NCBI GenBank assembly: GCA_963966185.1
Contig: CAWZYM010000342.1
Span: 92,501-156,500 of the forward strand
Direction of reading: 5' to 3'
From: Rhabditoides inermis
Lineage: Eukaryota; Nematoda; Chromadorea; Rhabditida; Rhabditidae
Length of the DNA: 64,000 nt
Part shown: piece by piece, positions 20,590 through 47,924 of the stretch
Position numbering within the stretch: position 1 is the first letter of the stretch
Layout: every line of letters starts with the position of its first letter
Notes under the pieces: generated by a model
The model's input: the letters and a program-made list of their open reading frames with translations, nothing else
What the model was told of the DNA's origin: nothing
The model's database searches: none
Program-made: the position numbers and the translations under genes

Positions 20590-23500
20590 ACGGCACTCAT
20601 GGTCCGCTTCGAACTGTATTGAACGCAGTGTCTGTGAGCCAATAGCTACAGTATTCTCGTCCCTCTATTGACTTTTATGAAGCATATAGAATCGATTAGG
20701 ACTGTCATATTTCAAACTGTTCGGCCATATTCCAAATTAGACGTCTAATTCAAATTAGACATCTAATTTGAATAAGACGTCTAATTTGGGTTTGGACGGT
20801 GCGACTGTGAAAACAAAACGACAGATGTGATTGTAGAGAGAATTTAGTTATATATTTGATTAGTGGTTGTATTTTATTGACTCCCAGGTCCCCTAGAGTC
20901 ATCCCATTGCCTCCTCTCATGGTCCGCTTCGAACTGTATTGAACGCAGTGTCTGTGAGCCAATAGCTACAGTATTCTCGTCCCTCTATTGACTTTTATGA
21001 AGCATCTAGAATCGATTAGGACTGTCATAATTCAAACTGTTCGGCCATATTCCAAATTAGACGTCTAACTTGGGTTTGGACGGTGCAACTGCAAAAACAA
21101 AACGACAGATGTGATTGTAGAGAGAATTTAATTTATATTTGATTTGTGGTTGTGTTTTATTGACTCCCAGGTCCACCTAGAGTCATCCCATTGCCTCCTC
21201 TCATGGTCCGCTTCGAACTGTATTGAACGCAGTGTCTGTGAGTTAATAGCTACAGTATTTCCGTCCCTTTATTGACTTTCGTGAAGCATCTAGTATCGAT
21301 TAGGACTGTCATATTTCAAACTGTTCGGCCATATTCCAAATTAGACGTCTAATTCAAATTAGACATCTAATTTGAATTAGACGTCTAACTTGGGTTTGGA
21401 CGGTGCAACTGCAAAAACAAAACGACAAATGTGATTGTAGAGAGAATTTAATTATATTTTTGGTTTGTGGTTGTATTTTATTGACTCCCAGGTCGCCTAG
21501 AGTCATCCCATTGCCTCCTCTCATGGTCCGCTTTGAACTGTATTGAACGCAGTGTCTGTGAGCCAATAGCTACAGTATTCTCGTCCCTCTATTGACTTTT
21601 ATGAAGCATCTAGAATCGATTAGGACTGTCATAATTCAAACTGTTCGGCCATATTCCAAATTAGACGTCTAAGTCAAATTAGACATCTAATTTGAATTAG
21701 ACGTCTAATTTGGGTTTGGACGGTGCAACTGCAAAAACAAAACGACAGATGTGATTCTAGAGAGAATTTAATTTTATATTTGATTTGTGGTTGTATTTTA
21801 TTGACTCCCAGGTCCCCTAGAGTCATCCCATTGCCTCCTCTCATGGTCCGCTTCGAACTGTATTGAACGCAGTGTCTGTTAGCCAATAGCTACAGTATTC
21901 TCGTCCCTTTATTGACTTTTATGAAGCATCTAGAATCGATTAGGACTGTCATAATTTAAACTGTTCGGCCATATTCCAAATTAGACGTCTTATTCAAATT
22001 AGACATCTAATTTGAATTAGACGTCTAATTTGGGTTTGGACGGTGCAACTGCAAAAACAAAACGACAGATGTGATTGTAGAGAGAATTTATTTTTATATT
22101 TGAATTGTGGTTGTTTTTTATTGACTCCCAGGTCTCCTAGAGTCATCCCATTGCCTCCTCTCATGGTCCGCTTCGAACTGTATTGAACGCAGTGTCTGTG
22201 AGCAAATAGCTACAGTATTCTCGTCCCTCTATTGACTTTTATGAAACATCTAGAATCGATTAGGACTGTCATATTTCAAACTGTTCGGCCATATTCGAAA
22301 TTAGACGTCTAATTCAAATTAGACATCTAATTTGAATTAGACGTCTAATTTGGGTTTGGACGGTGCAACTGCAAAAACAAAAAGACAGATGTGATTGTAG
22401 ACAGAATTTAATTTTATATTTGATTTGTGGTTGTATTTTATTGACTCCCAGGTCCCCTAGAGTCATCCCATTGCCTCCTCTCATGGTCCGCTTCGAACTG
22501 TATTGAACGCAGTGTCTGTGAGCCAATAGCTACAGTACTCTCGTCCCTCTATTGACTTTCATGAAGCATCTAGAATCGATTAGGACTGTCATATTTCAAA
22601 CTGTTCGGCCATATTCGAAATTAGACGTCTAATTCAAATTAGACATCTAATTTGAATTAGACGTCTAATTTGAATTAGACGTCTAATTTGGGTTTGGAGG
22701 GTGAAACTGCAAAAACAAAAAGACAGATGTGATTGTAGACAGGATTTAATTTTATATTTGAATTGTGGTTGTATTTTATTGACTCCCAGGTCCCCTAGAG
22801 TCATCCCATTGCCTCCTCTCATGGTCCGCTTTGAACTGTATTGAACGCAGTGTCTGTGAGCCAATAGCTACAGTATTCTCGTCCCTCTATTGACTTTTAT
22901 GAAGCATCTAGAATCGATTAGGACTGTCATATTTCAAACTGTTCGGCCATATTCGAAATTAGACGTCTAATTCAAATTAGACATCTAATTTGAATTAGAC
23001 GTCTAATTTGAATTAGACGTCTAATTTGAATTAGACGTCTAATTTGGGTTTGGAGGGTGAAACTGCAAAAACAAAAAGACAGATGTGATTGTAGACAGAA
23101 TTTAATTTTATATTTGAATTGTGGTTGTATTTTATTGACTCCCAGGTCCCCTAGAGTCATCCCATTGCCTCCTCTCATGGTCCGCTTTGAACTGTATTGA
23201 ACGCAGTGTCTGTGAGCCAATAGCTACAGTATTCTCGTCCCTCTATTGACTTTTGTGAAGCATCTAGAATCGATTAGGACTGTCATATTTCAAACTGTTC
23301 GGCCATATTCGAAATTAGACGTCTAATTCAAATTAGACATCTAATTTGAATTAGACGTCTAATTTGAACTAGACGTCTAATTTGGGTTTGGAGGGTGAAA
23401 CTGCAAAAACAAAAAGACAGATGTGATTGTAGACAGAATTTAATTTTATATTTGAATTGTGGTTGTATTTTGTTGACTCCCAGGTCTCCTAGAGTCATCC

Positions 23501-26500
23501 CATTGCCTCCTCTCATGGTCCGCTTTGAACTGTATTGAACGCAGTGTCTGTGAGCCAATAGCTACAGTATTCTCGTCCCTCTATTGACTTTTATGAAGCA
23601 TCTAGAATCGATTAGGACTGTCATATTTCAAACTGTTCGGCCATATTCGAAATTAGACGTCTAATTCAAATTAGACATCTGATTTGAATTAGACGTCTAA
23701 TTTGAACTAGACGTCTAATTTGGGTTTGGAGGGTGAAATTGCAAAAACAAAAAGACAGATGTGATTGTAGACAGAATTTAATTTTATATTTGAATTGTGG
23801 TTGTATTTTGTTGACTCCCAGGTCCCCTAGAGTCATCCCATTGCATCCTCTCATGGTCCGCTTTGAACTGTATTGAACGCAGTGTCTGTGAGCCAATAGC
23901 TACAGTATTCTCGTCCCTCAATTGACTTTTATGAAGCATCTAAAATCGAATAGGACTGTCATATTTCAAACTGTTCGGCCATATTCGAACTTAGACGTCT
24001 AATTCAAATTAGACATCTAATTTGAATTAGACGTCTAATTTGAACTAGACGTCTAATTTGGGTTTGGAGGGTGAAACTGCAAAAACAAAAAGACAGATGT
24101 GATTGTAGACAGAATTTAATTTTATATTTGAATTGTGGTTGTATTTTGTTGACTCCCAGGTTCCCCTAGAGTCATCCCATTGCCTCCTCTCATGGTCCTT
24201 CCGAACTGTATTGAACGCAGTGTCTGTGAGCCAATAGCTACAGTATTCTCGTCCTTCTATTGATTTTTATGAAACATCTAGAATCGATTAGGACTGTCAT
24301 ATTTCAAACTGTTCGGCCATATTTCAAATTAGACGTCTTATTCAAATTAGACGTCTAATTCAAATTAGACGTCTAATTTGGGGTTGGAGGGTGCAACTCA
24401 AAAACAAAAATACATAGGTAATTGTAGAGAGAATTTGATTTTTTATTTGGTTTGTGGTTGTATTTTATTGACTCCCAGGTACCCTAGAGTCATCCCATTG
24501 CCTCCTCTCATGGTCCGCTTCGAACTGTATTGAACGCAGTGTCTGTGAGCCAATAGCTACAGTATTCTCGTCCCTCTATTGACTTTTATGAAGCATCTAG
24601 AATCGATTAGGACCCTCATATTTCAAACTGTTCGGCCATATTCCAAATTAGACGTCTAATTCAAATTAGACATCTAATTTGAATTAGACGTCTAATTTGG
24701 GTTTGGACGGTGCAACTGCAAAAACAAAACGACAGATGTGATTGTAGAGAGAATTTAATTATATATTTGATTTGTGGTTGTGTTCTATTGACTCCCAGGT
24801 CCCCTAGAGTCATCCCATCGCCTCCTCTCATGGTCCGCTTCGAACTGTATTGAACGCAGTGTCTGTGAGCCAATAGCTACAGTATTCTCGTCCCTCTATT
24901 GACTTTTATGAAGCATCTAGAATCGATTAGGACTGTCATATTTCAAACTGTTCGGCCATATTCGAAATTAGACGTCTAATTCAAATTAGACATCTAATTT
25001 GAATTAGACGTCTAATTTGGGTTGGGACGGTGCAACTGCAAAAACAAAACGACAGATGTGATTGTAGAGAGAATTTAATTATTTATGTGATTTGTGGTTG
25101 TATTTTATTGACTCCCAGGTCGCCTAGAGTCATCCCATTGCATCCTCTCATGGTCCGCTTCGAACTGTTTTGAACGCAGTGTCTGTGAGCCAATAGCTAC
25201 AGTACTCTCGTCCCTCTATTGACTTTTATGAAGCATCTAGAATCGATTAGGACTGTCATATTTCAAACTGTTCAGCCATATTCCAAATTAGACGTCTAAT
25301 TCAAATTAGACATCTAATTTGAATTAGACGTCTAATTTGGGTTTGGACGGTGCAACTGCAAAAACAAAACGACAGATGTGATTGTAGAGAGAATTTAGTT
25401 ATATATTTGATTTGTGGTTGTAATTCATTGACTCCCAGGTCCCCTAGAGTCATCCCATTGCCTCCTCTCATGGTCCGCTTCGAACTGTATTGAACGCAGT
25501 GTCTGTGAGCCAATAGCTACAGTATTCTCGTCCCTCTATTGACTTTTATGAAGCATCTAAAATCGATTAGAACTGTCAGATTTCAAACTGTTCGGCCATA
25601 TTCCAAATTAGACGTCTAATTCAAATTAGACATCTAATTTGAATTAGACGTCTAATTTGGGTTTGGACGGTGCAACTGCAAAAACAAAACGACAGATGTG
25701 ATTGTAGAGAGAATTTAATTATATATTTGATTTGTGGTTGTGTTTTATTGACTCCCAGGTCCCCTAGAGTCATCCCATTGCCTCCTCTCAAGGTCCGCTT
25801 CGAACTGTATTGAACGCAGTGTCTGTGAGCCAATAGCTACAGTATTCTCGTCCCTTTATTGACTTTTATGAAGCATCTAGTATCGATTAGGACTATCATA
25901 TTTCAAACTGTTCGGCCATATTCCAAATTAGACGTCTAATTCAAATTAGACATCTAATTTGAATTAGACGTCTAATTTGGGTTTGGACGGTGCAACTGCA
26001 AAAACAAAACGACAAATGTGATTGTAGAGAGAATTTAGTTATATATTTGATTTGTGGTTGTAATTTATTGACTCCCAGGTCGCCTAGAGTCATCCCATTG
26101 CCTCCTCTCATGGTCCGCTTCGAACTGTATTGAACGCAGTGTCTGTGAGCCAATAGCTACAGTATTCTCGTCCCTCTATTGACTTTTATGAAGCATCTAG
26201 AATCGATTAGGACTGTCATATTTCAAACTGTTCGACCATATTCCAAATTAGACGTCTAATTCAAATTAGACATCTAATTTGAATTAGACGTCTAATTTGG
26301 GTTTGGACGGTGCAACTGCAAAAACAAAACGACAGATGTGATTGTAGAGAGAATTTAGTTATATATTTGATTTGTGGTTGTATTTTATTGACTCCCAGGT
26401 CCCCTAGAGTCATCCCATTGCCTCCTCTCATGGTCCGCTTCGAACTGTATTGAACGCAGTGTCTGTGAGCCAATAGCTACAGTATTCTCGTCCCTCTATT

Positions 26501-27005
26501 GACTTTTATGAAGCATCTAGAATCGATTAGGACTGTCATATTTCAAACTGTTCGGCCATATTCCAAATTAGACGTCTAATTCAAATTAGACATCTAATTT
26601 GAATTAGACGTCTAATTTGGGTTTGGACGGTGCAACTGCAAAAACAAAACGACAGATGTGATTGTTGAGAGAATTTAATCATATATTTGATTTGTGGTTG
26701 TATTTTATTGACTCCCAGGTCGCCTAGAGTCATCCCATTGCCTCCTCTCATGGTCCGCTTCGAACTGTATTGAACGCAGTGTCTGTGAGCCAATAGCTAC
26801 AATATTCTCGTCTCTCTATTGACTTTTATAAAGCATTCAGAATCGATTAGAACTGTCATATTTCAAACTGTTCGGTCATATTCCAAATTAGACGTCTAAT
26901 TCAAATTAGACATCTAATTTAAATTAGACGTCTAATTTGGGTTTGGACGATGCAACTGCAAAAACAAAAAGACAGATGTGATTGTAGAGAGAATTTAAGT
27001 TTATA
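20590..27005. repeat. ~320-bp satellite, array 2 (about 20 monomers)
   Basis: Same monomer as array 1. From about 24,650 to 26,900 the spacing is exactly 320 bp. Between 22,634 and 24,060 the spacing steps to 338, 356 and 338 bp, because the junction gains one or two extra 18-bp units containing the palindrome TTAGACGTCTAATTTGAA. Several monomers also differ by GTCGCC versus GTCCCC in the conserved block. Confidence 0.95.
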
Positions 27006-27744
27006 TTAGAGAGGGCGCGCCAGCGCCCTCTCGTTTGTACTGGATGTCCCCGCGCGCTAGAATGCTCAAAAACGACTTTTCCCGGATGAAGCACTTTTCC
27101 TCATTTTGAAGTGATTTCCACTGTTACATTGCATTCACATCTCTATTCGATAGAGTTATAGAAAGTTGTATTGAGTTTGATTGAATTTGAAGCGAGATAC
27201 GGAGAGTCCGCATTCGAGTGCGGATTGAGATTGGTGTCGGGCGGGCGGGCGGGCGGGCGGGCGGGCGGGCGTCGGACAATCGCTTTCGCCCCGCCCCCTC
27301 TGTGTGTGAGTGAGAGAGAGAGGCGAATAGCGGGTGCGCGTCGGTATCCTCGCAGCGAATCGCGAACGTGTATGAAAATATAATTTTGTGAAACAAAACT
27401 TAAGAAAAGGACAGATATTATCTTTCAAAAGTACTTCCAAGTAAAAGTAGTTGGTTTGTACTGTTGTCTCAGTTGAGCAAAAGGACTGACATGTTTTCAA
27501 TAGAGACATGTGCAAACAGGCTCTCAGCATTATTCGACGTGTTATGTTACAACAGAAGTTGTGTTTTTAGATAATAACTGCATAACTTTGTAAACGCGTT
27601 CATTATAATATGGCCGCTTTGCACTGGTATGAGAGAGAGAGCCTGTTGGCACATGTCTCCATTGAAAACATGTCAGTCCTTTTGCTCAACTGAGACAACA
27701 GTACAAACCAACTACTTTTACTTGGAAGTACTTTTGAAAGATAA
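27006..27744 (-). mobile_element. Helitron-like non-autonomous element H1, inside the satellite
   Basis: Read on the minus strand it starts (T)TATCTTTCAAAAGTACTTCC, has a ~110-bp foldback (arms 27,635-27,744 and 27,418-27,525), and ends in a perfect 10-bp-stem hairpin (27,009-27,032) followed by CTAA. The interrupted satellite monomer shows insertion between A and T with no clear target duplication. Terminal hairpin plus CTRR end and A/T insertion are Helitron traits, but the expected bare TC 5' end and RepHel protein are missing. A (GGGC)n run lies at 27,239-27,270. Confidence 0.6.
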
Positions 27745-28590
27745 TTTGAATTGTGGTTGTATTTTATTGACTCCCAGGTCGCTTAGAGTCATCCCATTGC
27801 CTCCTCTCATGGTCCGCTTCGAACTGTATTGAACGCAGTGCCTGTGATCCAATAGCTACAATATTCTCGTCTCTCTATTGACTTTTATGAAGCATTCAGA
27901 ATCGATTAGAACTGTCATATTTCAAACTGTTCGGCCATATCCCAAATTAGACGTCTAATTCAAATTAGACATCTAATTTAAATTAGACGTCTAATTTGGG
28001 TTTGGACGATGCAACTGCAAAAACAAAACGACAGATGTGATTGTAGAGAGAATTTAGTTATATATTTGATTTGTGGTTGTATTTTATTGACTCCCAGGTC
28101 GCCTAGAGTCATCCCATTGCCTCCTCTCATGGTCCGCTTCGAACTGTATTGAACGCAGTGTCTGTGAGCCAATAGCTACAGTATTCTCGTCCCTCTATTG
28201 ACTTTTATGAAGCATCTAGAATCGATTAGGACTGTCATATTTCAAACTGTTCGGCCATATTCCAAATTAGACGTCTAATTCAAATTAGACATCTAATTTA
28301 AATTAGACGTCTAATTTGGGTTTGGACGATGCAACTGCAAAAAAAAAACGACAGATGTGATTGTAGAGAGAATTTAATTTTATGTTTGAATTGTGGTTGT
28401 ATTTTATTGACTCCCAGGTTCCCAGGTCCCCTAGAGTCATCCCATTGCCTCCTCTCATGGTCCGCTTCGGACTGTATTGAACGCAGTGTCTGTGCGCCAA
28501 TAGCTACAGTATTCTCGTCCCTCTATTGACTTTTATGAAGCATCTAGAATCGATTAGGACTGTCATATTTCAAACTGTTCGGCCATTTTT
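27745..28590. repeat. ~320-bp satellite, end of array 2
   Basis: Remaining 2.6 monomers after insertion H1. One carries a duplicated CCCAGGT motif near 28,418. The array stops abruptly at TTCGGCCATTTTT, where a truncated gene end begins. Confidence 0.9.
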
Positions 28591-28591: not shown

Positions 28592-28800
28592 AATACGAGA
28601 TTGTTTTAGTCGTTTTAGTCGCAGGCTACTCGTGCAACTTCGAGAGACAAGAAGGCCATTCTCGTCAGCTTCGCTTCTCTTGGTCGATTCTAGAATAATC
28701 AATTGCGTTTTTTTCCAAAATTGTTAAGATATTGCAATTATACCGATTTTATAACTTACATTTAAAGACTCTTTAATACAGTGTTTTCGCAAAAAAGTTT
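28592..28800 (+). pseudogene. Remnant: last exon of a third phosphatase-kinase copy
   Basis: 28,625-28,693 is the same terminal exon (ATRATS... to LGRF and TAG) as at 38,187-38,255 and 55,803-55,871, preceded by the same TTTTAGTCGCAG acceptor. All upstream exons are missing and replaced by the satellite. The usual AATAAA downstream is changed to a run of A. It shows that the cassette array once extended further left. Confidence 0.85.
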
Positions 28801-28887
28801 ATTTCGTTTATTCGTAGCGAACTTTTGTCGTACATTTTGCTAACACCACGGCAACCAATACGTTACTGTATGTAAGAAAGAATAGCT

Positions 28888-29395
28888 TAGGGTTACGATA
28901 GGAGAATAATTAGATCTACTCCACTTGTTTAGGATTACGTTAGATTAATATTTTTACCTACTCCACTCGCTTAGGGCTTAGGATTACGGTATGAAAACAT
29001 ATTTTTATCTACTCCACTCGCTTAAGATGACGGTATGATAATAATTTGACCTACTCCACTCGCTTATCATTACGGTATGAGAATACATTGACCTACTCCA
29101 CTCGCTTAGGATTACGGTAGGAGAATAATTTGATCTTCTCCACTCGCTTAGGATTACGGTATGAGAATACATATTTCGACCTACTCCACTCGCTTAGGAT
29201 GACGGTATGATAATAATTTGACCTTCTCCACTCGCTTATCATTACGGTATGAGAATAATTTGGTCTACTCCACTCGCCTAGGATTACGGTCGGAGAATAC
29301 TTTGACCTACTCCACTCGCTTAGATTTACGGTAGAAGAATAATTTGACCTACTCCACTCGCTTACGACTACGATAGAAGAATACTTTGACGAACC
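28888..29395. repeat. 42-bp satellite array 2
   Basis: About a dozen units in plus orientation between the gene remnant and the Sre remnant, in the same relative place as arrays 3 and 5. Confidence 0.9.
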
Positions 29396-31625: not shown

Positions 31626-31682
31626 ATGACTCGTCTCGCGTGGTGGTCAGTCCATGTTACTGATCCTGTTTTATTTTCCCGG

Positions 31683-31727
<45 letters not shown>

Positions 31728-34700
31728 CTCTCTTTTTCTCTCTCTCTACCTATCTCAACCCTCTCTATCTCAGGCTGTTGCTTCTCCTTTTGATGTCCCT
31801 ATCGGTTCTCGGTGACGACTCCAAGGCGAAATCCATCAAGATCAAGAGTCTCTCGTCCAAGAGTGAGTCAGATATTCCACACCAGTCTATTGCGAGCGAT
31901 TCGCTCGAAATGAAGACACGACTTCGTGTAAACTGGATATGTTGTTGAAAAATTCCGTGTTGCCAATTGTTTTTGTCAAATACGCCGATATCCGATCGAT
32001 ATCCGATCGATATCAATAGTTAGTCCAGAAACGAAGCAAACGCGGAATTTTGATAGTCCGTAGTGTTTATCTCTTTCTTTGATTAACGACTAAGCACAGA
32101 ACCAAAAAAAAGATATTTTTTTTCTTCTCAATCACTGACAATGACAAATCATCTTCACAATTTCACAACTTCGCAACTTCACTAACAAACATTTTTTGAT
32201 ATATTTTTTTAACAAGTTTCACCCGAGTCAACATCATGTTTCAGACTGCACTGCCTACTCGCACACCGTTCGCCCGGTGCCTCATCTGTGGAACAGTACA
32301 GAGTGGCAGGACAGACTTCTGGATGCGACTGCGGATCTCCTCGCACCGAACCCTGTCGAATTCCCACAGCCATCCGAGGAGACCATACGAGGAGTGCTGG
32401 AGGTATTTATGATGCTTTATCTTTGTAATCAACATATCATCTAGTACGCATTTGGTATCGGTAATGAAAAGACGTTCGCAGATTTGGTTCATGAAATCGA
32501 AGAAAACCTGCCGGTTAGATGAAAACAAGTTGTATTTGATCTTTGTTATAGCAAACCTCTATCACTCCGTCCGTCGTGTTTCGATTGTTGTCTTGTGTTA
32601 GTGTCATTGCAGTTGTTGCTTATATGACATATCTCACTAAGAAGAAACCACGTATACAGGTTGAGTCATGTTACACAAAACAAGTCCCTACATGCATATT
32701 TAAGACAATCAGAACGGTTTCATACGTAACGAATGAACAAACAGTAATCATTCCATCGCTACCCAAAGATAGCTCGAGAGAAATTTACTATTTGAAGGTG
32801 TATTCGGATTCTATTATCAAAAATGGTGTATGTTTCAGAAATCGATTGTTGTGATATCGGTTGTCACACTGGCTTTCGTAATTGCTTCGATTATTTGTGT
32901 CAGTGCGTTCTTCCAAACTCACGACAAAATCGCCGCTGATATATCCAAAAACATCAACTCCCAGATTCAAAGTTGGTTCCGAATAAAAATCGATTATACA
33001 TGATTCAGACATCTACTATGAAATGCAAGAGTTGATGTGTGCCATTCGAGAATCTGTCGAAAATCCGAAAGCTAACATGATACTTGCACTAAATGACGTC
33101 ATTATCAAACAGGTATATATTCTTCAAAAGTAAAAGAAAAGCTTTACGTTATAGCTGCATGAAGTAAACACGAAAGTTTTGAGCGACACTCATCCGGATG
33201 AAATGGCGGTACTTCAAAATTACCGTATGACCTACATCGTATAAATTGCAGATGAATCTCATAAAACATTTCAAAACCATAAACACGGATCCAATTCTCT
33301 TTGCAATTGAACAATTGCGCGTGAGTTGAAATGTTTTTTTTAATCAAAAATTGAAACTTTTTTTTAGAGAAATGAAGAAACACAAATAATTAACAATCCT
33401 GAAGTAATGAACGCTGTCAGAGAAGTTGAGATGTTCTACAAAACATTCGACGAAAACTTTCATTTCGCGCAAAATGATAACGTATGTTCTATCATGTACC
33501 ATATAAACTTCTTCTTGCAAAAAAAGTCATACTTAGAAAAGTTCTTTCAATGTGCACAAAATTCTCGAATACAACGCGCAATCATATAGCAAGAAACTTC
33601 TGAATACAAAGTTCTCACGGCCGAAAAACATGTTTTCAAAAGCGGTGTGTTTGAGAAAAAACGTTTGTAATTGTCAGCGTCATATAGATTTACAATGAAT
33701 TGTACAAGATTGGAAAAGAAGTATCGCAGTTCAAAATCAGGAAACTTGAGGTGATTTTTTTTATAGATCATCATTATAATCGTATATATTTTTATCAGAC
33801 ACAGTACACTATAACCAACAATTCTGCAAAGCAAATGATCGTTGTCATTGTGGTTGTACAAATGACTGCATGTTTATTGGCATTCGCACTCTACTTTGCA
33901 CCACGTATGTTATTTGTTATTAATCGAAATCAGCACAAAATGTTTCAGTCAAGCCGAAAATGATTTTTATGTGCTCAATTGTTGTATTTGCTCTCATGAT
34001 CATTTCGACAATTTACACCCCGTGATTTCTCTTTTTTCGCCTTACTTTATAAGCCATTCTGATTTCAGTTTGATATTACAATTTTCAAACGTACGCCAAT
34101 TTGGGTGTAATCTTTTTGTTGAAAACAAACAAAACATTTGGAACACCGCAGCTAATTTAAACGGATCATTTTTGCAGAGAAACTATCTGTATGTTGATAT
34201 CATTTGTATGTATTGCTAATCACGGTAAATTTAGAAACCTAAATGCATGTTATACAAGTAATGGTAATGTTTTCTTTGAGAGGTATACGGATCGTGCATT
34301 GCAAGGTATTTATTGGAAAAAAGTCATCTCGACTTTTTTTAGGTATTCGCGACCAATTTTCAACCACAGAAGTTCTGATCAGAGATTTGTCAGTTGAACA
34401 TGCAACCGGTATTCTACCCGGACTCATGGTATGAAAATAGCATATTCAATAACTGAAAAATCTGTTCATAGAATCTCAAAAAGCATTACAACGAGTTTGA
34501 TGGAAAGGTCAATGATACTATAAAACAATGCACTCCTGTGATTACCAACTTGGGAATTGTTAGAGAATCAATCAAATGTTTCGAATCTATTGACAAACAA
34601 TTCATCATGCAAAAACTATATTCACTCAATAATGAAGTACGAACGTTCAAGGTAAAACAACTCACGTTATAAACTTTGAATAAGCTTCACTTCAAAGATG

Positions 34701-37700
34701 TACTGGAATTGTGGAGGCCAAACATCTTGCAAAAATATATCTGCATTCGATGACCTCGAAAACAATTTGAAAAAAACAATGCGTGATCCTGGCATATCTT
34801 CACTCTTAGCTCCGATAAACAGCAGCACGACTTCAATCAAGGTTTCACGTTTTTACATTATCTTTTTTTTAAATCCGTATTTCATTTCATAGACGGCTCT
34901 CATGAATGCATTGCCGAAAGATTGTCAGATGGCAATCATATACTCTAATATTGTCACTCGAATCTGTAATCAAGTCAAGCCATTCTATCTAGTTGCTCTG
35001 ACAATGTGTGAGTTTTTATTTATAAAAAATCAATTTACATAATCAACATCCAGACCTTAACAATGTAACAATTTGGTTGATCGGATTTGTAATTTTTCTG
35101 ATAGGCCGCCTCAGAATTCTACGACCAGTAAGATTGAGATCTGAAATCGATTCAAAGGTATGTTGGTTGATCAACACTGACTCATTTATCGAAATTCAGC
35201 GCGAGTTGAACTCCAACAATCAGAAGAAGTTTGGAAATAGCGTAGGAATTTCACTGGCAAGTATTTAATTTGTATCCATTGTAAATTTGAGATTCAGGAT
35301 TGCATTGGAATCGATCCTCGAAAAGCCTATAAGGAATTCCTGTGACAGTTCGTGACTGATAAATCTAAAAAGAAGACATCGGGAAGCAAAGCGTCGACGT
35401 CAAATATGGTTGATGTGAAGGAATCGAAAGAAGCAACTGATAATTCGACTACGGTCAATTTGGGCTGGTCGGGAGAATCAAACTACTTTAACGGAAATTG
35501 GGTCGTTCCAATGGGACTTGCACACAAGTATTTTTTGTTATTAAAAGTAGACTTTTTCAACTAAACAACTCAGATATATAATGACCGCTGCTCCAACCGC
35601 TGACACTGCCATTGACTTTTGGCATGTGATCTTTCGATACAACTGCAAAGCAATTGTCATGCTATGCGATTTTGTTGAAAAAGAAAAAGGACAGTCTGTT
35701 GAAAAGTGTTTCGAATATTGGAACGAAAAGACACACCGTGTATTTGAGAACCAATTCGCGAAATACAAGGTATGATATGACCACAACAATTCATGTTTTC
35801 TAACACATTACTTTTATAGATCAAATGTACCTCTGTGAAAAAGTCTGTTATCAAAAATGTGAAGCACCTCGTTTTCTCAGTTTCTGAGTGAGTCATAACA
35901 AACAAAAGTAGAATATTCAAACAGTGAACATTTATCAAGCATTTAGTGGATACGTGACAAAGAAAGTTGAATTGATCCAATACACCGGCTGGCAAGACTG
36001 CCTTGCTCCTGAAAACCCGGAAGAAATGGCACAAGTGATGAAAACGATATACGAAAACATTGGACACACGGACGAGCCAGTGGTCGTCCACTGCGCTGAC
36101 GGACTTGGAAGGAGCGCCGCATTTGTCGGTATGATAACCACTGTTCTTTTCTTCTTCTAGGAAATTTTTTTTAGGAATGGATATTCTCATGGGAATGGTC
36201 GACTCTGATCCGAATCCCGGGTCTTTCGATCTTATACAGGTGTTGTTGTTACTCACAATTTAATCACTCATGTATTTTGTAGATGATGCGTCGATTCCGA
36301 GCCAACAGCTACACTGACAAGTGGCAGTACTATTTCACTTACATTTGCTTCTTCCAGTTTCATATCATTGTAAAAAAGAACTTATTTGAAATACCTTTTC
36401 ACTAACCGTTGCAGAATCTCACCTATGGCGAAGTGTCAAAAATCTACAACTACATAAAGGATAGAAAGACTTCGTTTGTGGAGAAAATAAAGGCTGCATC
36501 GGCTTCGGAGGACTACACTGCTCTGAAGAAAAGAAGGGTGGAAACGGCAATGAACTACATTGAATTCCAAAACGCAAACGACAAGAAGGGCAAAAAGAGG
36601 AAGGAATCGTCATCGCAAAAAGAGAGGGTATACAATTGATGTTTTCATCCGTTTGTCTCACCTAAAGATGTTCAGAAATTGTCTGGAACGTATTTGAGTG
36701 GCTGCAATGATGAGTATCTACTTGGGAAACTGTTGGGAGCAGGCACCTACGGAGAGGTGTATCAAGCAACTAAAGAGAAGCAAGACCCGAAAATGAATAC
36801 AGCAACCAAAGAACATGAACATGAAGTAAAGTATGCAATCAAGACAGAAAAACGCGGAATCACATGTTCATCTCTCACTGTATGATCAATTGATAGTAGC
36901 ATTTAAATTAATATTATTCAGACGGAAATTTATGTTCTGATGGATGTCTCATCAAATGCGCCAGAAAACAGAAACCAGATTGTTCAATACATTGACAAAG
37001 GTGAGATTTGATGATTTTGATTATTGCCGAAATTTATATTCAGGCCGAACTGCGAGCTTCGAGTTCTTGGTTATGAGTCTGGTCGGCAAATCTCTCAGCA
37101 CTATTCAACAACATGTTTCAAAAAAACTCGAGTATTTGAATATTATTCTAAAACAACAACCACTTACAACTACTTTTAAGCTCGTTTTCGGCAATGTATA
37201 TTTCTATCCAATCTTTCAATGCAATCCATCAATTGCACAGATGTGGATTCATTCACAGGCTTGTCATCATTTTTTATCATGACATATGTGTTCAGAGATA
37301 TCAAGCCTGGAAACTTTGCGATTAGTGGGAAAAAGAACGAGAAAGTTGTGTTTATTCTCGACTTTGGATTGGCCCAGCGTAGCATTGATCGAGAAGGAAA
37401 CATTGCAGTTTACAGAGGCAAAGAAAAGGGACTGATTGGTACTATGCGGTGAGCAACCTGTTGAAAAACTTTTTTTTTCAAAATTCCAATTTGAATTACC
37501 AGATATGCCCCTCGTGCAGCCCACGAAATGAGAAAGCAGTATCCTTACGACGACATCGAATCCTGGCTTTACATGAGTATTGAGGTTAGTTGCATTAACA
37601 ATTTGCGAAAAAAAAGTCTTGTTCAGATGTTCCAAAAGCTGCCGTGGAAAGGAAATGTGAATTCGGAAGAGGTTCTGCATGGAAAAATCAATCTCATGAA

Positions 37701-38255
37701 GGGAAACTGTAAGCAGTATATAATGACATCATTGTTATGAAGTCACTTCCAGACTCGCATTCGATGTGGAACAACGGCCTCCCAATCGCTATGCTTCATC
37801 TCATCAAGTTTTTTTTTCTGGAGTATCATAAGTTTAGGATAATCTGTTTAGAATGATATACGAAATGAATCCGAAAGAGGCTTCCGACTACAGAAAGCTG
37901 ATGCATGTGATGATGGGAGCAGAATGCGACTGTGATGTTAGTAAAATTATTATTTTAACGGCATTTATATAGTGTTTTGCTAATATAATTTTATTGATTG
38001 AACCATATTCGAATCTTATCCTTCAGGTCGATCTTAACTGGATAATCTCTACAAAAATCCATGACAAGGACCAATACGAGGTATTCGGAACAATAACAAT
38101 AACTGAATCATAATGGATTGTCAAACTCGTACATAACTGTTTTATAGTCTAGTCATATTTTTTCAATCCACTCGTTTTAGTCGCAGGCTACTCGTGCAAC
38201 TTCGAAAGACAAGAAGGCAATTCTCGTCAGCTTCGCTTCTCTTGGTCGATTCTAG
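31626..38255 (+). CDS. Five-TM (prominin-like) receptor tyrosine phosphatase fused to a CK1-like kinase, copy 1
   Basis: Forty exons join in consistent phase (4,353 nt, ~1,450 codons): 31626-31645, 31774-31862, 32245-32402, 32445-32513, 32552-32797, 32839-32971, 33009-33112, 33155-33208, 33252-33320, 33368-33481, 33537-33644, 33688-33750, 33799-33904, 33949-34021, 34069-34188, 34235-34305, 34343-34428, 34472-34651, 34698-34841, 34893-35007, 35054-35157, 35200-35256, 35298-35527, 35574-35769, 35820-35887, 35947-36128, 36175-36239, 36283-36369, 36415-36627, 36676-36879, 36922-37000, 37044-37131, 37181-37258, 37296-37448, 37503-37584, 37627-37708, 37753-37807, 37852-37936, 38027-38080, 38187-38255. 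Seen: signal peptide (MTRLAW plus a leucine run), membrane segments near residues 120, 197, 420, 450 and 713 with two ~200-240 residue loops; phosphatase with HCADGLGR (Cys ~975) and WQD (~941-943); kinase with GAGTYG, YAIK, HRDIKPGN and DFG. Oddities: TGA at 35,343-35,345 before the phosphatase (AGA in copy 2), and GC donors at 35,257 and 37,259. Prominin relationship is inferred from topology only. Confidence 0.8.
35343..35348 (+). promoter_or_regulatory. In-frame TGA immediately followed by a potential CAG splice acceptor
   Basis: The reading frame of exon 35,298-35,527 meets TGA at 35,343-35,345. The next codon is CAG (35,346-35,348). Using that AG as an acceptor, with the preceding exon ending in phase 0, would start the exon at 35,349 in the same frame and omit 17 codons including the stop. 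Two products are therefore possible: a membrane-only protein (776 residues) or the full fusion. The pyrimidine tract before this AG is weak. Confidence 0.45.
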
Positions 38256-38409
38256 AATATTCACATGCGTGTTCCTCTAAAATAGTTAAGATAATGCAAT
38301 TATACCGATTTAATAATTTATATAAGCAATTATACCGATTTTATAACGATTTTATAACAATTGTACCGATTTTTTAAACATTTAAGACTCTTTATCACAG
38401 TGTTTCCGC

Positions 38410-38415: not shown

Positions 38416-38671
38416 GTTTATTTTGTTTGTTCCTAGCGAACTTTTGTCGTACAATTTGCTATACAATACTGTTGTCGTGGAATTATCCACGACCCACGTG
38501 ATACAGTAATCTAGCTAATGTGACGTCATCAGATACGTTTGTCCTGAATCTGATGTGACAATTCCTTGTGACACAATACGCGAGCCGAGTGAGCAAGCAG
38601 AGCCGAGGCAAGGTAAGAAGAAGAGAGAGCGCGCTGCCGCGTCCCGCCGTAGCCTGATTTGCATACTGCCC

Positions 38672-39372
38672 GCTTAGGATTACGGTAGGAGAATACTTTG
38701 ACCTACTCCATTCGCTTAGGATTACGGTAGGAGAAAACTTTGACCTACTCCACTCGCTTAGGATTACGCATTACGGTAGGAGAATAATTTGATCTACTCC
38801 ACTCGCTTAGGATTACGGTAGGAAAATATTTTGACCTACTCCACTCGCTTAGGATCACGGTAAGAGAAAACTTTGACCTACTTAACTCGCTTAGGATTAC
38901 GGTAGGAGAATAATTTGATCTACTCCACTCGCTTAGGATTACGGTAGGAGAATACTTTGACCTACTCCACTAGATTTGGATTACGGTAGGAGAATACTTT
39001 GACCTACTCCACTCGCTTAGGATTACGGTAGGAGATTACTTTGACCTACTCCACTCGCTAAGGATTACGGTAGGAAAATACTTTGACCTACTCCACTCGC
39101 ATAGGATTACGGTAGGAGAATACTTTGACCCACTCCACTCGCTTAGGATTACGGTATGAGAATACATATTTCGAACTACTTCACTCGCTTAGGAAAAGGT
39201 ATGATAATAATTTGACCTACTCCACTTGCTTACCATTACGGTTACGAGATGAATTTCACCTACTTCACTCGCTTAGAATTACGGTAGGAGAGTAATTTGA
39301 TCTACTCCACTCGCTTAGAATTACGGTAGGAGAATAATTTGACCTACTCCACTCGCTTACGATAATACTTTG
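38672..39372. repeat. 42-bp satellite array 3
   Basis: About 16 units in plus orientation between the 3' ends of two convergent genes (phosphatase-kinase and Sre copy A). Confidence 0.95.
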
Positions 39373-40989: not shown

Positions 40990-41984
40990 GCAGGTTTGTG
41001 TTAGTATTTGTAAACGTTTTATGCATGCGCTTTTGTTGAATTGAGTCAAGACAAACTGACTATCTTTACGCGAGTACTTTTAAGAGATATTATTCATAGG
41101 TTTTGTTCACCTCAAGCGTGAAAATATTCTCGTTTAGCTGATAGCGCAGTGAAAGTGAATACTCGGGTCGAGTGTAATATGAGCTGATTATGTTCTTGTT
41201 TATCCTCTTCACTATTAGGAACAGCTAAAACACTGTGTGACTGAAAACTCTTTCTTGAAGTAACATACCATAATGGTCACTATAACAATGGGAATTGTGA
41301 GGCAGAGAAACGTTGGCGGAAGCACGTCTTTAAGTATTGTGACGTTTGAAGGAATTAGATGCGCGCTTACCTAACGAGAACAATGATGTCGTCATCAACG
41401 ATATCACGCATGCAGCGCTATTGAGAACGTAGGAAATGTATATCCTATCGCTTTTTTCATAATCTTCTATCAAAACGGTCGCAATGATTCTCTCGACCAG
41501 CAACGCTATCGGATGAAAAACGAGCATCGCAATGTAGAAATAGCGATACGTAGTTAGCAACAATAGCACGTGCCAACGCAATTCTACGATCAAATCATGA
41601 TTGAAACAACCCGTCTCTCAGCTCTCACGTGTGGAATCGAGAATCTCCAATTGAAAGAGCAAACTGATACATCGGAAAATGTGAAAGCCGACGGTTGTGA
41701 GCGGTAGAACGGAAATGAGGGCAGTGATGTTGGGATGGAAGGCCGTGGTGGCGCGTTTTATGGCGAATAGGGTGACAATGACAAGGACAGCTGCGAGCGG
41801 ATGGCACACCAACTGAAACAGCCAACTCTCGTGCAATCCGACTGCTCACTTCGATGATGTTGCAGACGACAAAGAAGCGACTATAAGACAGCTGCTGCAC
41901 GACTTCACTGTCGACGAAGAATGTAAGTCGACAGTCGAATTCGAATCCAAACACGTCGAGCTTCTCGATACCGAACGACCGCAT
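39648..41984 (-). CDS. Sre-family 7TM chemoreceptor, copy A
   Basis: Predicted chemosensory G-protein-coupled receptor in the plasma membrane. Eight minus-strand exons: 41850-41984, 41629-41812, 41371-41583, 41269-41327, 41111-41224, 39951-40087, 39770-39860, 39648-39716. Together they give 1,002 nt or 333 residues, the usual Sre length. Seven hydrophobic segments are visible, including LAAVLVIVTLFAI (TM1), the ERIIATVLIEDYEK motif after TM3, IPIVIVTIMLFLIV (TM5), YSLSLRYQLNEN after TM5 and a C-terminal VYFSHLKSSW; the ER-ATxxxxDYE and YxLSxRYQxxEN motifs are characteristic of Sre. Start is the ATG at 41,984; an upstream GTG is not used. Intron 5 is enlarged by a 977-bp Helitron-like insertion. 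No frame break was found. Confidence 0.88.
40113..41089 (-). mobile_element. Helitron-like non-autonomous element H5, in Sre intron 5
   Basis: Same architecture as H1 but diverged: minus-strand 5' end TATCTCTTAAAAGTACTCGC, ~100-bp foldback arms (40,729-40,828 and 40,990-41,089) separated by GA-rich sequence, unique middle, and a hairpin (GAGAGGGCGC, GCA loop, GCGCCCTCTC) then CTAA at 40,113. The empty site is intact in copy B (about 57,661-57,668) and in the inverted copy. Removing the element between A and T restores that site without any duplication. Confidence 0.65.
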
Positions 41985-42548
41985 CACACTACGTGACTAC
42001 TCTGCAAACGATTTTCATCATTTGCATGCGATATCACCTGGCGACATTTGAGACGCCTCAGAGTGGAAATCAACTGGAACATTTCAGGCTTCAATTTGTA
42101 AAGGTGAAGTTAACGAGGGTGCGACGAGAGAACTTTCTAGAAACGGTCAGTGAAGGTAGACCAGTCTGGATAGATCCGAGCACTTTCGCTTTGTTTGAGT
42201 GAAACTGCTTGTTGAGAGAAACATTTTGAAATCAGTAATTGAGCTTTCAGTGATGTGGTTTATTTGATTGTCATTTGACAGCATATGCTGAAAATCGTAA
42301 CGTGAAATTTCTGTGACCAAAACTCTTCGCTAAGTGCCAAGGTGCCGTTGACAGTGTTTTAATATTATGCCATTATACACAATAATATGATATTATGACA
42401 TATATGGACTGTAATGAGGACAATATTCCATATTCAATGTGACATAAAATGATGTATGAATGACGAATAAATTATAATGTGATTACACGTGTACCAGAAC
42501 GGGTATAAAACGGGATCAGGCGGACGTCTATTCATTCGTTCTGTCAAC
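41985..42548. promoter_or_regulatory. Divergent intergenic region, Sre (-) and transthyretin-like gene (+)
   Basis: 564 bp between two oppositely transcribed start codons. On the right side TATAAAA at 42,504-42,510 lies 39 bp before the ATG of the transthyretin-like gene. An AT-rich ~95-bp block at 42,358-42,455 recurs at 58,908-59,010 and upstream of the secreted-protein gene at 63.74 kb. No TATA-like box is evident for the Sre side. Confidence 0.55.
42504..42510 (+). promoter_or_regulatory. TATA box of transthyretin-like gene, copy A
   Basis: GGGTATAAAACGGG, 39 bp upstream of the start codon. The close spacing implies transcription begins only a few bases before the ATG, which supports that ATG as the true start. 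Confidence 0.6.
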
Positions 42549-45507
42549 ATGGGATCTTCCTATTCTCGCACCGCAGTTTTTGATGGTAAGTCCTACATAA
42601 ATCTTTTTTAAGTCGCCGTCCAATGGATATGCAGTTTGTGCTTTAACGTTAGAGGTCAGTTGACGAAATTCGGCGAGCGAGAAAGAGACCAGATAGCGCG
42701 GGAAAAGACTTGATTCGAATGCGGGCTTCGATGACAATATCAGTATATGAAATGCGATTAGAAAAAAATCAACGTTGCTTCAGTTATTCACAATAGTTTC
42801 TTTATTCCAATCAAATATTTGTTGTAAATTATTAACATCTTACACTATTGAGATTGTTTTTCAGTCAACACAGATCACTGAAAGCTTTCAGTGATTTTCT
42901 GATAGATTATAGAACATAAATGTCAGAGTCAGAGTAGATAGAATGTTATAAAACTAGTTTGAACTAATCTGGACTATACTATTTCCCTGTGATAAAAAGA
43001 TGGACACAAATTACAATAACAAAACTTCTAGCTTGATCACATCTCGTAACACTCACAATCAGATTAATTTTTTTGCAGTTTCGTTTCCGTCTGAAACTTA
43101 TACTGTTCCTTGTTACAGGTAATGTGACATGCAACATCCGAGATTCATTCTTCGTTAAAATACATTATTTTGTGAGTTCATTTTGAATATATTCCATTAG
43201 AAGTACACAACTGGAATGTATTGTCTTTCCGTCTTATTTCCGAAACAATTAGAGAGGGTGCGCCAGCGCCCTCTCGTTTGTACTGAATGTCTCGCGCGTT
43301 AGAAAGTTACAAACGACTTTTTCCGGAAAAAGCTTTTTCCTAATTTTGAAGTGTTTTCCACTGTTTTCGGACAATCGCGTTGGCTCCGCCCCCTCTGTGT
43401 GTGAGTGAGAGAGAGGCGAATAGCGAATTCGCGCCGGTATCATCGCTACGAATAGCGAACGTGTATGAAAAGCAATTTTGTGAAACAAAACTGAAGAAAA
43501 GGACAGACAATATCTTGCAAAAGTGCTTACGAGTAAAAGTAGTTGGTTTGTACTGTTTTCTCAGTTAAGCAAAAGGACTGACATGTCTTCAATGGAGACA
43601 TGTGCAAACAGGCTCTCAGCATTATTCGACGTGTTATGCTACACCAGAAGTTGTGTTTTTAGATAACAACTGCATACCTTTGTGAACACGTTCAGTATAA
43701 TATGGCGGTTTGGCACTGGAATGAGAGAGAGAGCCTGTTGGCACATGTCTCCATTGAAAACATGTTAGTCCTTTTTCTCAACTGAGACAACAGTGCAAAC
43801 CAACTACTTTTACTTTGAAGTACTTTTGAAAGATAATCTAGCATAGTGGTAAACGTTCCCGATGGGTAAAAATAAGTTCGCAAACCCGACTCGTCTCACG
43901 TGCTAGCGCTGGCTGGAGTTTATTTGGCGCCGCTAAGAAGCGTCATCTAAGGCTTTTCTATACACGCTGCAACGCTCGATGCCGCATGCGTTTCTTGTGC
44001 CAATGTGCAACCGCACGCCGCGATGCGTTTCGGAGCATGGTGCGTGCGGCTGCGGCTGCGTTTTGCATATTCCAGACTCGCCGCAGCGATATTGCACGCT
44101 TGTTGCGTTAATACCTTGCCGCACGTGCGTTGCGGCGGAGTTACCCCGCCAAATTATGCAGATTTGCCGCATGCGTTTCGAAACGCAACCGCGCCGCAGA
44201 GACGGACAGACATTGCGTTTTTTATACATACATACAGTGGGTGGAAAAATGAGTTGCCAGGCCGAGAGAGCAGCAGAGATATCGCGCGCGCGAGAGTGTA
44301 GAGAGTGGCAGGCGGGATTGACGCTAGAGTGCGCTGATTTTGAAGTATTGAGCACATCGCCCCACCCGGGCAATCATTACTGGAAATGTGTCAAGTTACA
44401 TTGACCATGTACGTATTTGAACGCGAGAGAAGGGGTACGTATCGCTCGTACGTATCGGTTCGTACGTATCGGTTCGTCCGTATCGGTTCGTACATACGTA
44501 TCGGTTCGTACGTATCGGTTCGTACGTATCGCTCGTACGTATCGGTTCGTCGGTTCGGTCGGTACGTATCGGTTCGTATCGCTGCCCGCCTCTCACAGTT
44601 TCTCTTCTGCGTGAGTTCCGCGGATTATCTGCCGTTGTTTCAATTCGCGACAGCGCACAAAATTTTCTCAACTTGAGAACTCTTTCCCACGGGCTCTGAT
44701 GTTTATTTTACCATTTTTACGACTGTAGTGAAAATATTGAAACTTCATTGCTATACAAATTTAGAAGCATTTTTTTCAAAGGAACACACAACTATAAATT
44801 TCGTATCTAAAACTGCCACTGCCACATGAAAGAAAATCAAATCACAATCACTTTTAAAAATTTAACTTTATACTGAAAATGAATGAAGCATAAAGCAAAC
44901 AAGCCGCGAAGTTTTTTCGTTTTGTAGTAAGAATGACACAAGCGGAAACTTGTCTATGATAATATATTTTATTTTATTTATGAAAAATTGCCGTGACTCG
45001 ATGTTCCTTCGTGTTGCATTCGTAGTTTACGTACAAAAATAAGAGTGGTGTGTTTCTTTAATAGTGTATCACAATAAACTACATATTGTTTTGTTTGTAG
45101 GAACATGATTATGGTAGATTTGAAGAGAATTGTGATCATAATGATCACGACGATGAACTTGGATCATCAAAAGTCTATCATTTTAATAAAACCGGCGAAT
45201 ACAAAATTGATACATTTTATATAACGGAAACAGAAAACGAAGACATTGAACCGTATTTCATTGTCGAACACAATTGTCTCTCTGAACAAATCCAGGTAGA
45301 TTGTACAACTTTCTTTTTTCAAGTAATATTTTTTTTCAGAAATACAGTTGTTTTCTAACCTGGCCTGGAGTGGAAGAACACTATTATGTGACTGACGAGA
45401 AAGAATATAGAACATTTGACATCGTTCTAGATGATATATGTGATCCTTGCGTTTGGAGTTCATGCTTTGGCAAAACGTATTGGGGAAGGAACTGTTACGA
45501 CTACTGA
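42549..45507 (+). CDS. Transthyretin-like (TTR family) protein, copy A
   Basis: Exons 42549-42585, 43119-43171, 45101-45295 and 45340-45507 join in phase to 150 residues. The start (MGSSYSRTAVFDGNVTC) matches the V-x-G-x-V-x-C opening strand of nematode transthyretin-like proteins, and the later P-x-x-x-V-E-H-N-C segment (around residues 80-90) matches their P-x-L-x-I-x-H-x-C strand; length and cysteine pattern also fit. Family members are usually secreted carrier-like proteins. Here no signal peptide is visible, and the TATA box argues against a missing upstream exon. Intron 2 (1.93 kb) holds a Helitron-like element and GC-rich repeats; other introns are short or moderate. Coding sequence appears identical to copy B. 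Confidence 0.8.
43249..43836 (-). mobile_element. Helitron-like non-autonomous element H3, in transthyretin-like intron 2
   Basis: Same ends as H1: hairpin at 43,252-43,275 (one mismatch) followed on the minus strand by CTAA, and TTATCTTTCAAAAGTACTTC at the other end, with the CTCAGTT foldback arms. It lacks the (GGGC)n run of H1. Duplicated with its host intron as H4. Confidence 0.6.
43837..44710. repeat. tRNA-like head, CG-rich region and 14-bp tandem repeat in intron 2, copy A
   Basis: 43,837-43,900 (+) resembles a tRNA with A-box-like TAGCATAGTGGT and B-box-like GTTCGCAAACCC. Then comes ~350 bp dense in GCATGCG, CCGCATGCG and CGCAACG words. Last is a tandem repeat of about 14 bp (CGGTTCGTACGTAT) at about 44,430-44,580. 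Both strands are open here because the sequence is GC-rich; neither frame shows a family motif or splice context. Confidence 0.55.
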
Positions 45508-46109
45508 TATGTGTTAGCGCATAAACTTGTTGTTGTGTTGTTTTCTCATGTCAGTTGTGCCCCCACCGGGAGAATACAAGTAGAACATTCCAGATTTTTT
45601 CCTATCTTACCTAACATTTCCTATCTTCTCAATACCCTTCCCGACACTTCCCCCATTTTACTCTGGGGAGGTGTTTTTAGTGACCTGTTAAACTCCATCT
45701 TGGCAACAGCGCAGATCTGACAGAAAATGCGATCGGGAAAACTAGTCTCTGACGAATCTGACGAACTATCTCATAAATAATGTTCTGAAATTATATACAG
45801 CGAACTAGTATACTGTTGTGTCTGCACGAGTGAGATAGACGCGAGTAGTAAAGGCGTTTATTGAAATAGCCAATAGAACAATTTAGGAAAACAACTGAAA
45901 AGCTGGTGAGCGATACGCTATAAGCTCACCATGGCTACTGAACAGGGGAACTCAAAAAACAGTCCAGTATTAAAAGGCATAAGAATTCTCCCAGTGAATA
46001 TACATTGTGTCGTGAACAAGATATGTAAGTGATTCATTCTTTTATTTTTCTATCACATTTTCTATTCTACCAGTTGAGTCAACTTGTAAAAGTAAAGGTA
46101 AAGTAACCT
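45508..46109. other. Cassette 1 end and junction with the inverted fragment
   Basis: Homology with copy B ends at about 45,679 (GGGGAGGTGTTTTT, matching 62,236). 45,680-46,080 is single-copy here, with no supported gene. At 46,083-46,130 an imperfect hairpin (AACTTGTAAAAGTAAAGGT against ACCTTTACAAGTT) sits exactly at the outer end of the inverted fragment. Confidence 0.5.
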
Positions 46110-46238: not shown

Positions 46239-47606
46239 ATGCGGTCGTTCGGTATCGAGAAGCTCGACGTGTTTGGATTCGAATTCGACTGTCGACTTGC
46301 ATTCTTCGTCGACAGTGAAGTCGTGCAGCAGCTGTCTTATAGTCGCTTCTTTGTCGTCTGCAACATGATCGAAGTGAGCAGTCGGATTGCACGAGAGTTG
46401 GCTGTTTCAGTTGGTGTGCCATCCGCTCGCAGCTGTCCTTGTCATTGTCACACTATTCGCCATCAAACGCGCCACCAAGGCCTTCCATCCCAACATCACT
46501 GCCCTCATTTCCGTTCTACCGCTCACAACCGTCGGCTTTCACATTTTCCGATGTATCAGTTTGCTCTTTCAATTGGAGATTCTCGATTCCACGCGTGAGA
46601 TACGGGTTGTTTCAATCATGATTTGATCGTAGAATTGCGTTGGCACGTGCTATTGTTGCTAACTACGTATCGCTATTTCTACATTGCGATGCTCGTTTTT
46701 CATCCGATAGCCTTGCTGATCATTGCGACTTGCTGATCATTGCGAGAATCATTGCGACTGTTTTGATAGAAGATTATGAGAAAAGCGATAGGATATGCAT
46801 TTCCTACGTTCTCAATAGCGCTGCATGCGTAATTTCGTTGATGACGACATCATTGTTCTCGTTAGGTAAGCGCGCATCTAACTCCTTCAAACGTCACAAT
46901 AATTAAGACGTGCTTCCGCCAACGTTTCTCTGCCTCACGATTCCCATTGTTATAGTGACCATTATGGTATGTTACTTCAAGTAAGAGTTCTCAGTCACAC
47001 AGTGTTTTAGATGTTCCTAATAGTGAAGAAGATAAACAAGAACATAATCAGCTCCTATTACACTCGACCCGAGTATTCTCTTTCACTGCGCTATCAGCTA
47101 AACGAGAATATTTTCACGCTTGAGGTGAACAAAACCTATGAATAATATAGGATCATAGGAACGTTTCCAGTCATTGACGCCGCTGTTTTTTGGAGTGGAA
47201 GCAGCTGTCGCTTCGCAATTCATACTCTACTTCTTCCCCTTTCTATACAATCCCCTCGGCAGTTCGACGCAGCTAGCATGGCTCATACTCGAAATGACCA
47301 CACCAATGTAAATCACTATAATATATCTTTTCTATATATCTAAACTCTATATCACTCTAAACAAACATCTTCACATAATCACAATCCATTAAGAGTGATT
47401 GTGTGCGTGGTGGACGTTGTGATGACTGCCCATATGGGGTATCGGCGGCTATTCGTGGCATTCCTATTGCCCCGCAAGAAAGAGGTACGTCATTGCTCGA
47501 AGCCACACTGTGAGAGCGCAGATGTTCTGTGTTTCAGATAGTTAAACAGCCACTTAGCTGCCCCGGCGACGTCTATTACAGCCATCTCAAAAGCTCGTGG
47601 ATGTGA
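46239..47606 (+). pseudogene. Sre-family chemoreceptor pseudogene, inverted copy
   Basis: Exons equivalent to copy A: 46239-46373, 46411-46594, 46633-46865, 46908-46966, 47011-47124, 47171-47307, 47394-47484, 47538-47606. All splice sites look usable. In the third exon the motif encoding ALLVERIIAT is disrupted by about 20 extra bases that duplicate a TTGCTGATCATTGCGA word, causing a frameshift and a TGA at 46,734-46,736. The break falls in the conserved segment after TM3, so this copy cannot make a receptor. Confidence 0.85.
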
Positions 47607-47924
47607 AAGTAGGGTTGAAAAAAAACTGCGAGTGGGGGGGGGGGGGGTAACTGCAACCTTCTAAACGCCCCTGTTCCTTTACACAATTTTACTTTTACGT
47701 TTTTGTGTAACGAGTAACAGCCAATGTGTCTTATAAACAATTTTTCCCATATTTTTTTTGGAAAAAATGGTGTTATTACACGCATGACAGACTATTTCAA
47801 AGATACAAAAATGCAGTATGATAGAGACGCATCATCGAAAACACACACACCTCTCCTCCTTGAACCTGTCGTGCCTTCTCTCTTGCATGTCCACTATAAG
47901 GTACGTCAGAGTATTATCCTATCG

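Follow-up and report, generated by a model that had tools for sequence, protein, structure and literature searches.

A candidate nematode membrane protein with five spans and a cytoplasmic tail joining a tyrosine phosphatase to a CK1-superfamily kinase

At any given membrane, phosphatases and kinases usually act as separate proteins. Receptor-type protein tyrosine phosphatases (PTPs) cross the membrane once and carry tandem PTP domains; class I enzymes of this kind use a cysteine as nucleophile and an aspartate as acid, and the loop by which PTPs recognize phosphotyrosine is named KNRY. Five transmembrane segments (TM1 to TM5) are found in the prominins and in the Tweety homologues (TTYH). According to PMC11405016, the outer loops are about 280 residues long in prominins and about 120 in TTYH proteins, and prominin TM5 holds a near-invariant tryptophan (Trp-795). 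A Cys-rich TM1 and first inner loop, less conserved in prominin-2, are described for prominins in PMC3108902. We analysed a 64,000-nucleotide stretch of the genome of Rhabditoides inermis (contig CAWZYM010000342.1, positions 92,501 to 156,500; hereafter the window), which contains one long gene model, copy 1 (31,626-38,255, plus strand), and a 5'-truncated relative, copy 2 (50,435-55,871, plus strand). We propose, with a probability of about 0.6, that this family encodes a single nematode membrane protein with a signal peptide, an external N-terminus, five spans, two large outer loops and a cytoplasmic tail of about 700 residues composed of a PTP and a CK1-superfamily kinase.

Copy 1 was modelled as a chain of 40 exons running from the ATG at 31,626 to the TAG at 38,255 and ending in LGRF-TAG, with 39 introns of 46 nt median length. 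The model was obtained by a splice-aware search guided by copy 2, followed by hand changes at four exons; a splice-aware single-sequence search made without copy 2 returned only 34 exons and missed several, including the end of the HRD exon. The 40-exon model comprises 4,149 nt and 1,382 residues, instead of the 4,353 nt given in the preliminary description of this DNA. Hydropathy and Pfam profiles give the order of the protein as a signal-like start, five spans, a basic tail, then Y_phosphatase, then Pkinase.

All exons lie on the plus strand. Exons 1-2 (31,626-31,862) contain the start codon and the signal-like MTRLAWWLLLLLLMSLSVLG; the donor of the first exon is one of the weaker donors in splice-site scoring. 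Exons 3-4 (32,245-32,513) encode the N-terminal extracellular stretch, with about 100 outer residues before TM1. The N-terminus is inferred to lie outside, because of the signal-like start. TM1 (residues 120-138) and TM2 (151-169) are encoded by exon 5 (32,552-32,659) and exon 6 (32,839-32,971), the ends of which were both set by hand. Exons 7-12 (33,009-33,750) cover most of the first large loop, which counts about 206 residues between TM2 and TM3. TM3 (376-394) and TM4 (403-421), separated by a loop of about 8 residues, come from exons 13-14 (33,799-34,021), and the second large loop (about 239 residues between TM4 and TM5, with 8 Cys) from exons 15-20 (34,069-35,007). TM5 (661-679) and a basic juxtamembrane stretch follow in exons 21-22 (35,054-35,241). 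Exon 23, with its better-scoring acceptor, spans 35,298-35,527 and leads into the PTP domain (35,445-36,351). Exon 29 (36,415-36,627) is a Lys-rich linker that ends with ...SSQKER in phase 0. After an intron of 48 nt (36,628-36,675), the kinase domain occupies exons between 36,676 and 37,936, with HRDIKPGNF and DFG in those at 37,181-37,448, and the C-terminal exons lie at 38,027-38,255.

Copy 2, for which each exon was mapped in turn and two starts were adjusted, consists of 34 exons that keep the phases of copy 1 and form a single open frame of 3,599 nt, from loop 1 to LGRF-TAG without an internal stop. Its donors are GT at 33 of 33 sites and its acceptors AG at 33 of 34. Aligned identity between the copies is 86.6% in exons and 63.6% in introns. 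The exon substitutions (493, counted over the 35 exons that have at least one aligned base) are distributed over codon positions 1, 2 and 3 as 125, 82 and 286 (p=3.1e-29), and the excess at third positions is significant at p<0.05 for 18 of these exons. The ratio of nonsynonymous to synonymous divergence (dN/dS) was calculated by a Nei-Gojobori type method on 1,197 of 1,207 codons, gapped and stop codons being dropped and exons 1-6 lying outside the comparison. It is 0.16 overall and remains between 0.07 and 0.31 in all nine segments covered by copy 2: 0.13 in loop 1, 0.18 in TM3-TM4, 0.19 in loop 2, 0.31 in TM5, 0.25 in the linker to the PTP, 0.07 in the PTP, 0.12 in the PTP-kinase linker, 0.12 in the kinase and 0.08 in the C-terminal tail. 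Because the third-position bias and the low dN/dS go together with a phosphatase-kinase junction that is in phase in both copies, we consider that the fused frame has been under selection; this comparison provides good evidence of a fused frame, running from loop 1 through to LGRF-TAG, that remained in use during most of the period after the two copies parted. That a copy is intact at present does not follow from it. In addition, the loops show a high synonymous divergence (dS; 0.83 for loop 1, 0.88 for loop 2) and the kinase and tail a low one (0.20 and 0.27), a pattern suggestive of gene conversion toward the 3' end.

Both enzymes named in the preliminary description are recovered by profile searches. 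The phosphatase matches PF00102 (Y_phosphatase) with 163 bits and an E-value of 9.2e-48, for a cut-off of 20.9, and the kinase matches PF00069 (Pkinase) with 69.5 bits and an E-value of 4e-19. The PTP of both copies contains HCADGLGRS (36,089-36,115 in copy 1), which corresponds to the HC(X)5R signature, and WQD (35,990-35,998 in copy 1), a variant of WPD that holds the general-acid aspartate. Its best sequence match in the PDB is PTPRE (2jjd, E 1.6e-35). Receptor-type PTPs such as PTPRE thus share with the predicted protein a cytoplasmic class I PTP domain carried by a membrane protein, with HC(X)5R and WxD; unlike them, the protein has five predicted spans and a kinase where the second PTP domain sits. 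In the kinase, the catalytic motifs GAGTYGEV, AIK, HRD with IKPGN, and DFG are all present, and the best PDB sequence match is TTBK1 (7qhw, E 4.5e-25). Among the best 60 of 669 PDB matches, the first 46 are of the TTBK/CK1 type (one of them with a general kinase name only), and VRK, one MAP kinase and CHK2 come after them. The likeness to the TTBK/CK1 superfamily, with TTBK1 as reference, concerns the kinase core, HRDIKPxNF, DFG and a DD-S-YM stretch. On the other hand, in contrast to TTBK/CK1 kinases, including the nematode-expanded TTBKL and Worm families, the kinase is found here on a transmembrane protein and behind a phosphatase.

The junction between the two domains is in phase 0 in both copies, as had been described, with KER ending at 36,627 and KLSGTY starting at 36,676. 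The junction intron (48 nt, close to the median of 46 nt) would, if read through, add VYN and then a stop, that is, three codons. A separate kinase start was looked for at the 36,676 exon and was not found; the first in-frame Met of this first kinase exon is exon residue 40, behind the glycine loop. Differences between the copies in linker exon 29 fall on codon positions 1, 2 and 3 as 3, 2 and 14, a third-position bias with p=0.0004. A gene finder used without alignment makes the phosphatase-kinase join in both copies. This is a weak check: the program is crude, its codon and splice tables were partly trained on this gene, and it also fused neighbouring genes; in copy 1 it omitted the HRD exon and two exons of loop 2, and in copy 2 it bridged the region around 54,536 with a shortened kinase join.

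The membrane part is prominin-shaped, by topology alone. Like the prominins (PROM1), it is predicted to have five spans and two large outer loops, the inner loops being short, and its outer loops of about 206 and about 239 residues are nearer in length to those of prominins than to those of Ttyh. The earlier term 'prominin-like' therefore holds for the spans and the loops, and it does not extend to the sequence. No match to PF05478 (Prominin) was obtained with the membrane part of copy 1, with the corresponding part of copy 2, or with six pieces; as a control, human PROM1 scored 1,015 bits with this profile. A single-sequence hhalign comparison of the ectodomain with human PROM1 returned a probability of 0.4%, and segment shuffles against PROM1 gave z values from -0.4 to 2.5, none of them significant. 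Searched against PDB chains, the membrane part gave no significant match: a single row at E 0.45, a hemolysin, when one sequence was used, and none up to E 10 with a two-sequence profile. Tweety homologues also have five spans; the outer loops of the present protein are about twice as long as theirs, and its membrane part, whole or in pieces, does not match PF04906 (Tweety).

These comparisons bear on the idea that the membrane part derives from a genuine but highly diverged prominin, a membrane-bending pentaspan that acquired enzymes; this idea is compatible with the fused-protein reading, and we give it somewhat less than even odds. Besides the topology and the loop lengths, a Trp present in TM5 of both copies (residue 669 in copy 1) argues for it. 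However, the depth of this residue differs from that of the PROM1 Trp: it lies 11 residues from the first inner Arg, against 19 residues from a Lys near the inner end in the PROM1 sequence used for comparison. The TM1-TM2 loop TYLTKKKPRIQKS contains no Cys, and the Cys-rich TM1 and first inner loop of prominins are not present; nor do the profile and hhalign results favour such an origin. The enzymatic tail is a further difference from prominins. PMC3108902 names F08B12, M28.8 and M28.9 as prominin homologues of Caenorhabditis elegans, one of which may have a comparable tail.

Several observations weigh against the fused-protein reading. First, when the acceptor at 35,298 is used, copy 1 reads ...KAYKEFL-TGA, with the stop at 35,343-35,345, between TM5 and the PTP. 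This acceptor scores 8.2 bits, higher than 21 of the 38 other copy 1 acceptors. In the models built here the TGA is removed only via the acceptor at 35,349, which at -1.7 bits is the lowest when set against the 38 other model acceptors and whose score is equalled or exceeded by 38% of 292 decoy AGs; copy 1 therefore stays open only through a weak site. Moreover, its openness is partly a product of the modelling, since an open frame was what the search looked for. Hence, of the single frame from signal peptide to LGRF-TAG claimed earlier, the chain of 40 exons stands and the absence of interruption is not confirmed. Second, the HRD motif of copy 1 requires a GC donor at 37,259 (a GC-AG intron), where copy 2 has GT-AG. 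Third, copy 1 is the only source for the signal-like start, the N-terminus, TM1 and TM2: exons 1-6 are missing from copy 2, tblastn revealed no equivalent elsewhere in the window (nothing better than E 2.2), and a search of the window for exons that would encode TM1 and TM2 of copy 2 was negative. Fourth, the copy 2 kinase exon at 54,536-54,614 is the one without an AG acceptor. Fifth, the third-position excess has p>=0.05 in 17 of the 35 exons, examples being the exon that opens the kinase (p=0.29) and the one that encodes TM5 (p=0.36). Sixth, no KNRY-like stretch was seen by eye upstream of the PTP match, which begins at profile position 15 or 25 of 234; this is another difference from receptor-type PTPs, and PTP activity and phosphotyrosine specificity are therefore not certain. 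Finally, no fused relative was found among the matches listed, in insensitive searches with 7,996 and 7,622 scored candidates; these matches (15 and 14 proteins) are kinases and phosphatases, of which a single one bears a nematode name (Dirofilaria) and none is labelled as a nematode PTP. Because of the TGA in copy 1 and of the 5' truncation and lost acceptor in copy 2, no copy shows an intact full-length product, and neither is demonstrably intact in the sequence at hand.

It is possible, and not far-fetched, that both copies are pseudogenes of a once-fused gene, so that the architecture is real and no full-length protein is made; this too is compatible with the fused-protein reading. The TGA of copy 1 with the low acceptor score, the GC donor, the loss of exons 1-6 from copy 2, the inverted 3' fragment upstream of it and the absent AG at 54,536 can all be read in this way, and satellites and nested duplications crowd the region. 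However, dN/dS is low in every covered segment, the 34 exons of copy 2 are free of internal stops, and the TGA may be an assembly error or be spliced out. Given the low dN/dS and the stop-free copy 2, decay, if any, would therefore be recent. In our view, both window copies probably derive from an intact gene and have since become partly decayed or altered in isoform.

Less probable, and in our view unlikely, is that translation of copy 1 truly stops at the TGA, yielding a short pentaspan protein, the PTP and kinase forming a separate product or isoform and the acceptors at 35,298 and 35,349 acting as a switch for the tail. The two acceptors are indeed in phase with each other at a distance of 51 nt, and the choice between them decides whether the TGA is kept or lost. 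However, the acceptor at 35,349 has a decoy-like score; the copy 2 codon that matches the TGA is AGA, and this copy reads from TM5 into the PTP without a stop (...GNSDCIGIDPRKTYKDFLRPSVTDKSK...). Furthermore, the frame resumes right behind the TGA, which would leave little space for a separate gene start. A last alternative, that the PTP and the kinase are two adjacent genes joined in error, is highly improbable: such kinases and phosphatases of C. elegans appear as distinct genes in a table of PMC9635660 and an AATAAA occurs at 36,486, but this signal sits inside the coding linker exon, and the short phase-0 intron shared by both copies, the lack of a Met before the glycine loop and the constraint on the linker exon all speak against it.

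The surroundings of the two copies are rich in repeats. An inverted fragment of the last exons (49,909-50,396, minus strand) lies directly upstream of copy 2 and is 90.2% identical to 37,835-38,323, and a further fragment with the last exon and 3' end is found at 28,610-28,758 (plus strand, 91.3%). A 42-bp satellite forms five arrays (1,210-3,727; 28,885-29,390; 38,671-39,363; 47,901-48,980; 56,063-56,908), four of which stand just past the 3' end of a gene copy or fragment, as though satellite and last exon travelled as a unit. Downstream of both gene copies, a 4.6-kb block is repeated (41,087-45,678 and 57,663-62,235) with 98.4% identity. The two blocks are far more alike than the gene copies, which therefore points to nested duplications of different age. 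Pieces of Sre-type chemoreceptor genes were located by tblastn at 41,300-41,815 (minus strand), 46,408-46,981 (plus strand) and 57,876-58,390 (minus strand); one of them was scanned with Pfam (E 2.4e-12), and this match fits a nematode host. The window also contains a nearly pure TTA array (4,662-5,878, about 406 copies, 98% matches) and a second satellite with a unit of about 320 bp, in 284- and 338-bp variants, at 12,402-15,292, 20,771-27,007 and 27,744-28,586, with TTAGACGTCTAATT-like palindromes. Neither Rfam (gathering threshold) nor a tRNA scan gave a hit in the window.

As regards novelty, the preliminary description knew of no receptor combining a PTP with a CK1-type kinase. Our searches, which are weak, are consistent with this: an insensitive literature search, covering the listed titles and abstract starts of open-licence papers, returned no description of such a fusion, and a scan of viral contigs gave no relative. 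What would be new about the predicted protein, seen as a receptor-type PTP, is its membrane part and its kinase partner. In the proposed tail, a class I PTP would be followed by a Lys/Ser-rich linker and by a CK1-superfamily kinase that is nearest to TTBK among solved structures. The two enzymes would act at one membrane patch, and the outer loops may have a sensing or positioning role. There, the phosphatase would strip phosphotyrosine and the kinase would add phosphoserine or phosphothreonine, so that one protein could switch the type of phosphorylation carried by local substrates.

The relatives of both enzymes make a role at the surface of spermatids or sperm plausible. According to PMC4672506, two male-enriched clusters of Haemonchus comprise 79 kinase transcripts, 44 of them from the CK1 group and most of these from nematode-specific families. 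In C. elegans, NHR-23 promotes spermatogenesis and regulates CK1-type kinases and tyrosine phosphatases, according to PMC9635660. A more elaborate proposal is a dual phospho-switch receptor in which an active PTP and an active CK1-type kinase would operate together, probably on protrusions of the sperm membrane; another locus of the genome would hold an intact, expressed member of the family, and alternative use of a 3' splice site could toggle the tail. We hold this proposal, taken as a whole, to be doubtful. If true, the family would represent a new five-span receptor design and a natural two-enzyme switch, its single chain carrying both a tyrosine phosphatase and a serine/threonine kinase, and it would give a hint of how the sperm-linked PTP and CK1 families of nematodes came to cooperate.

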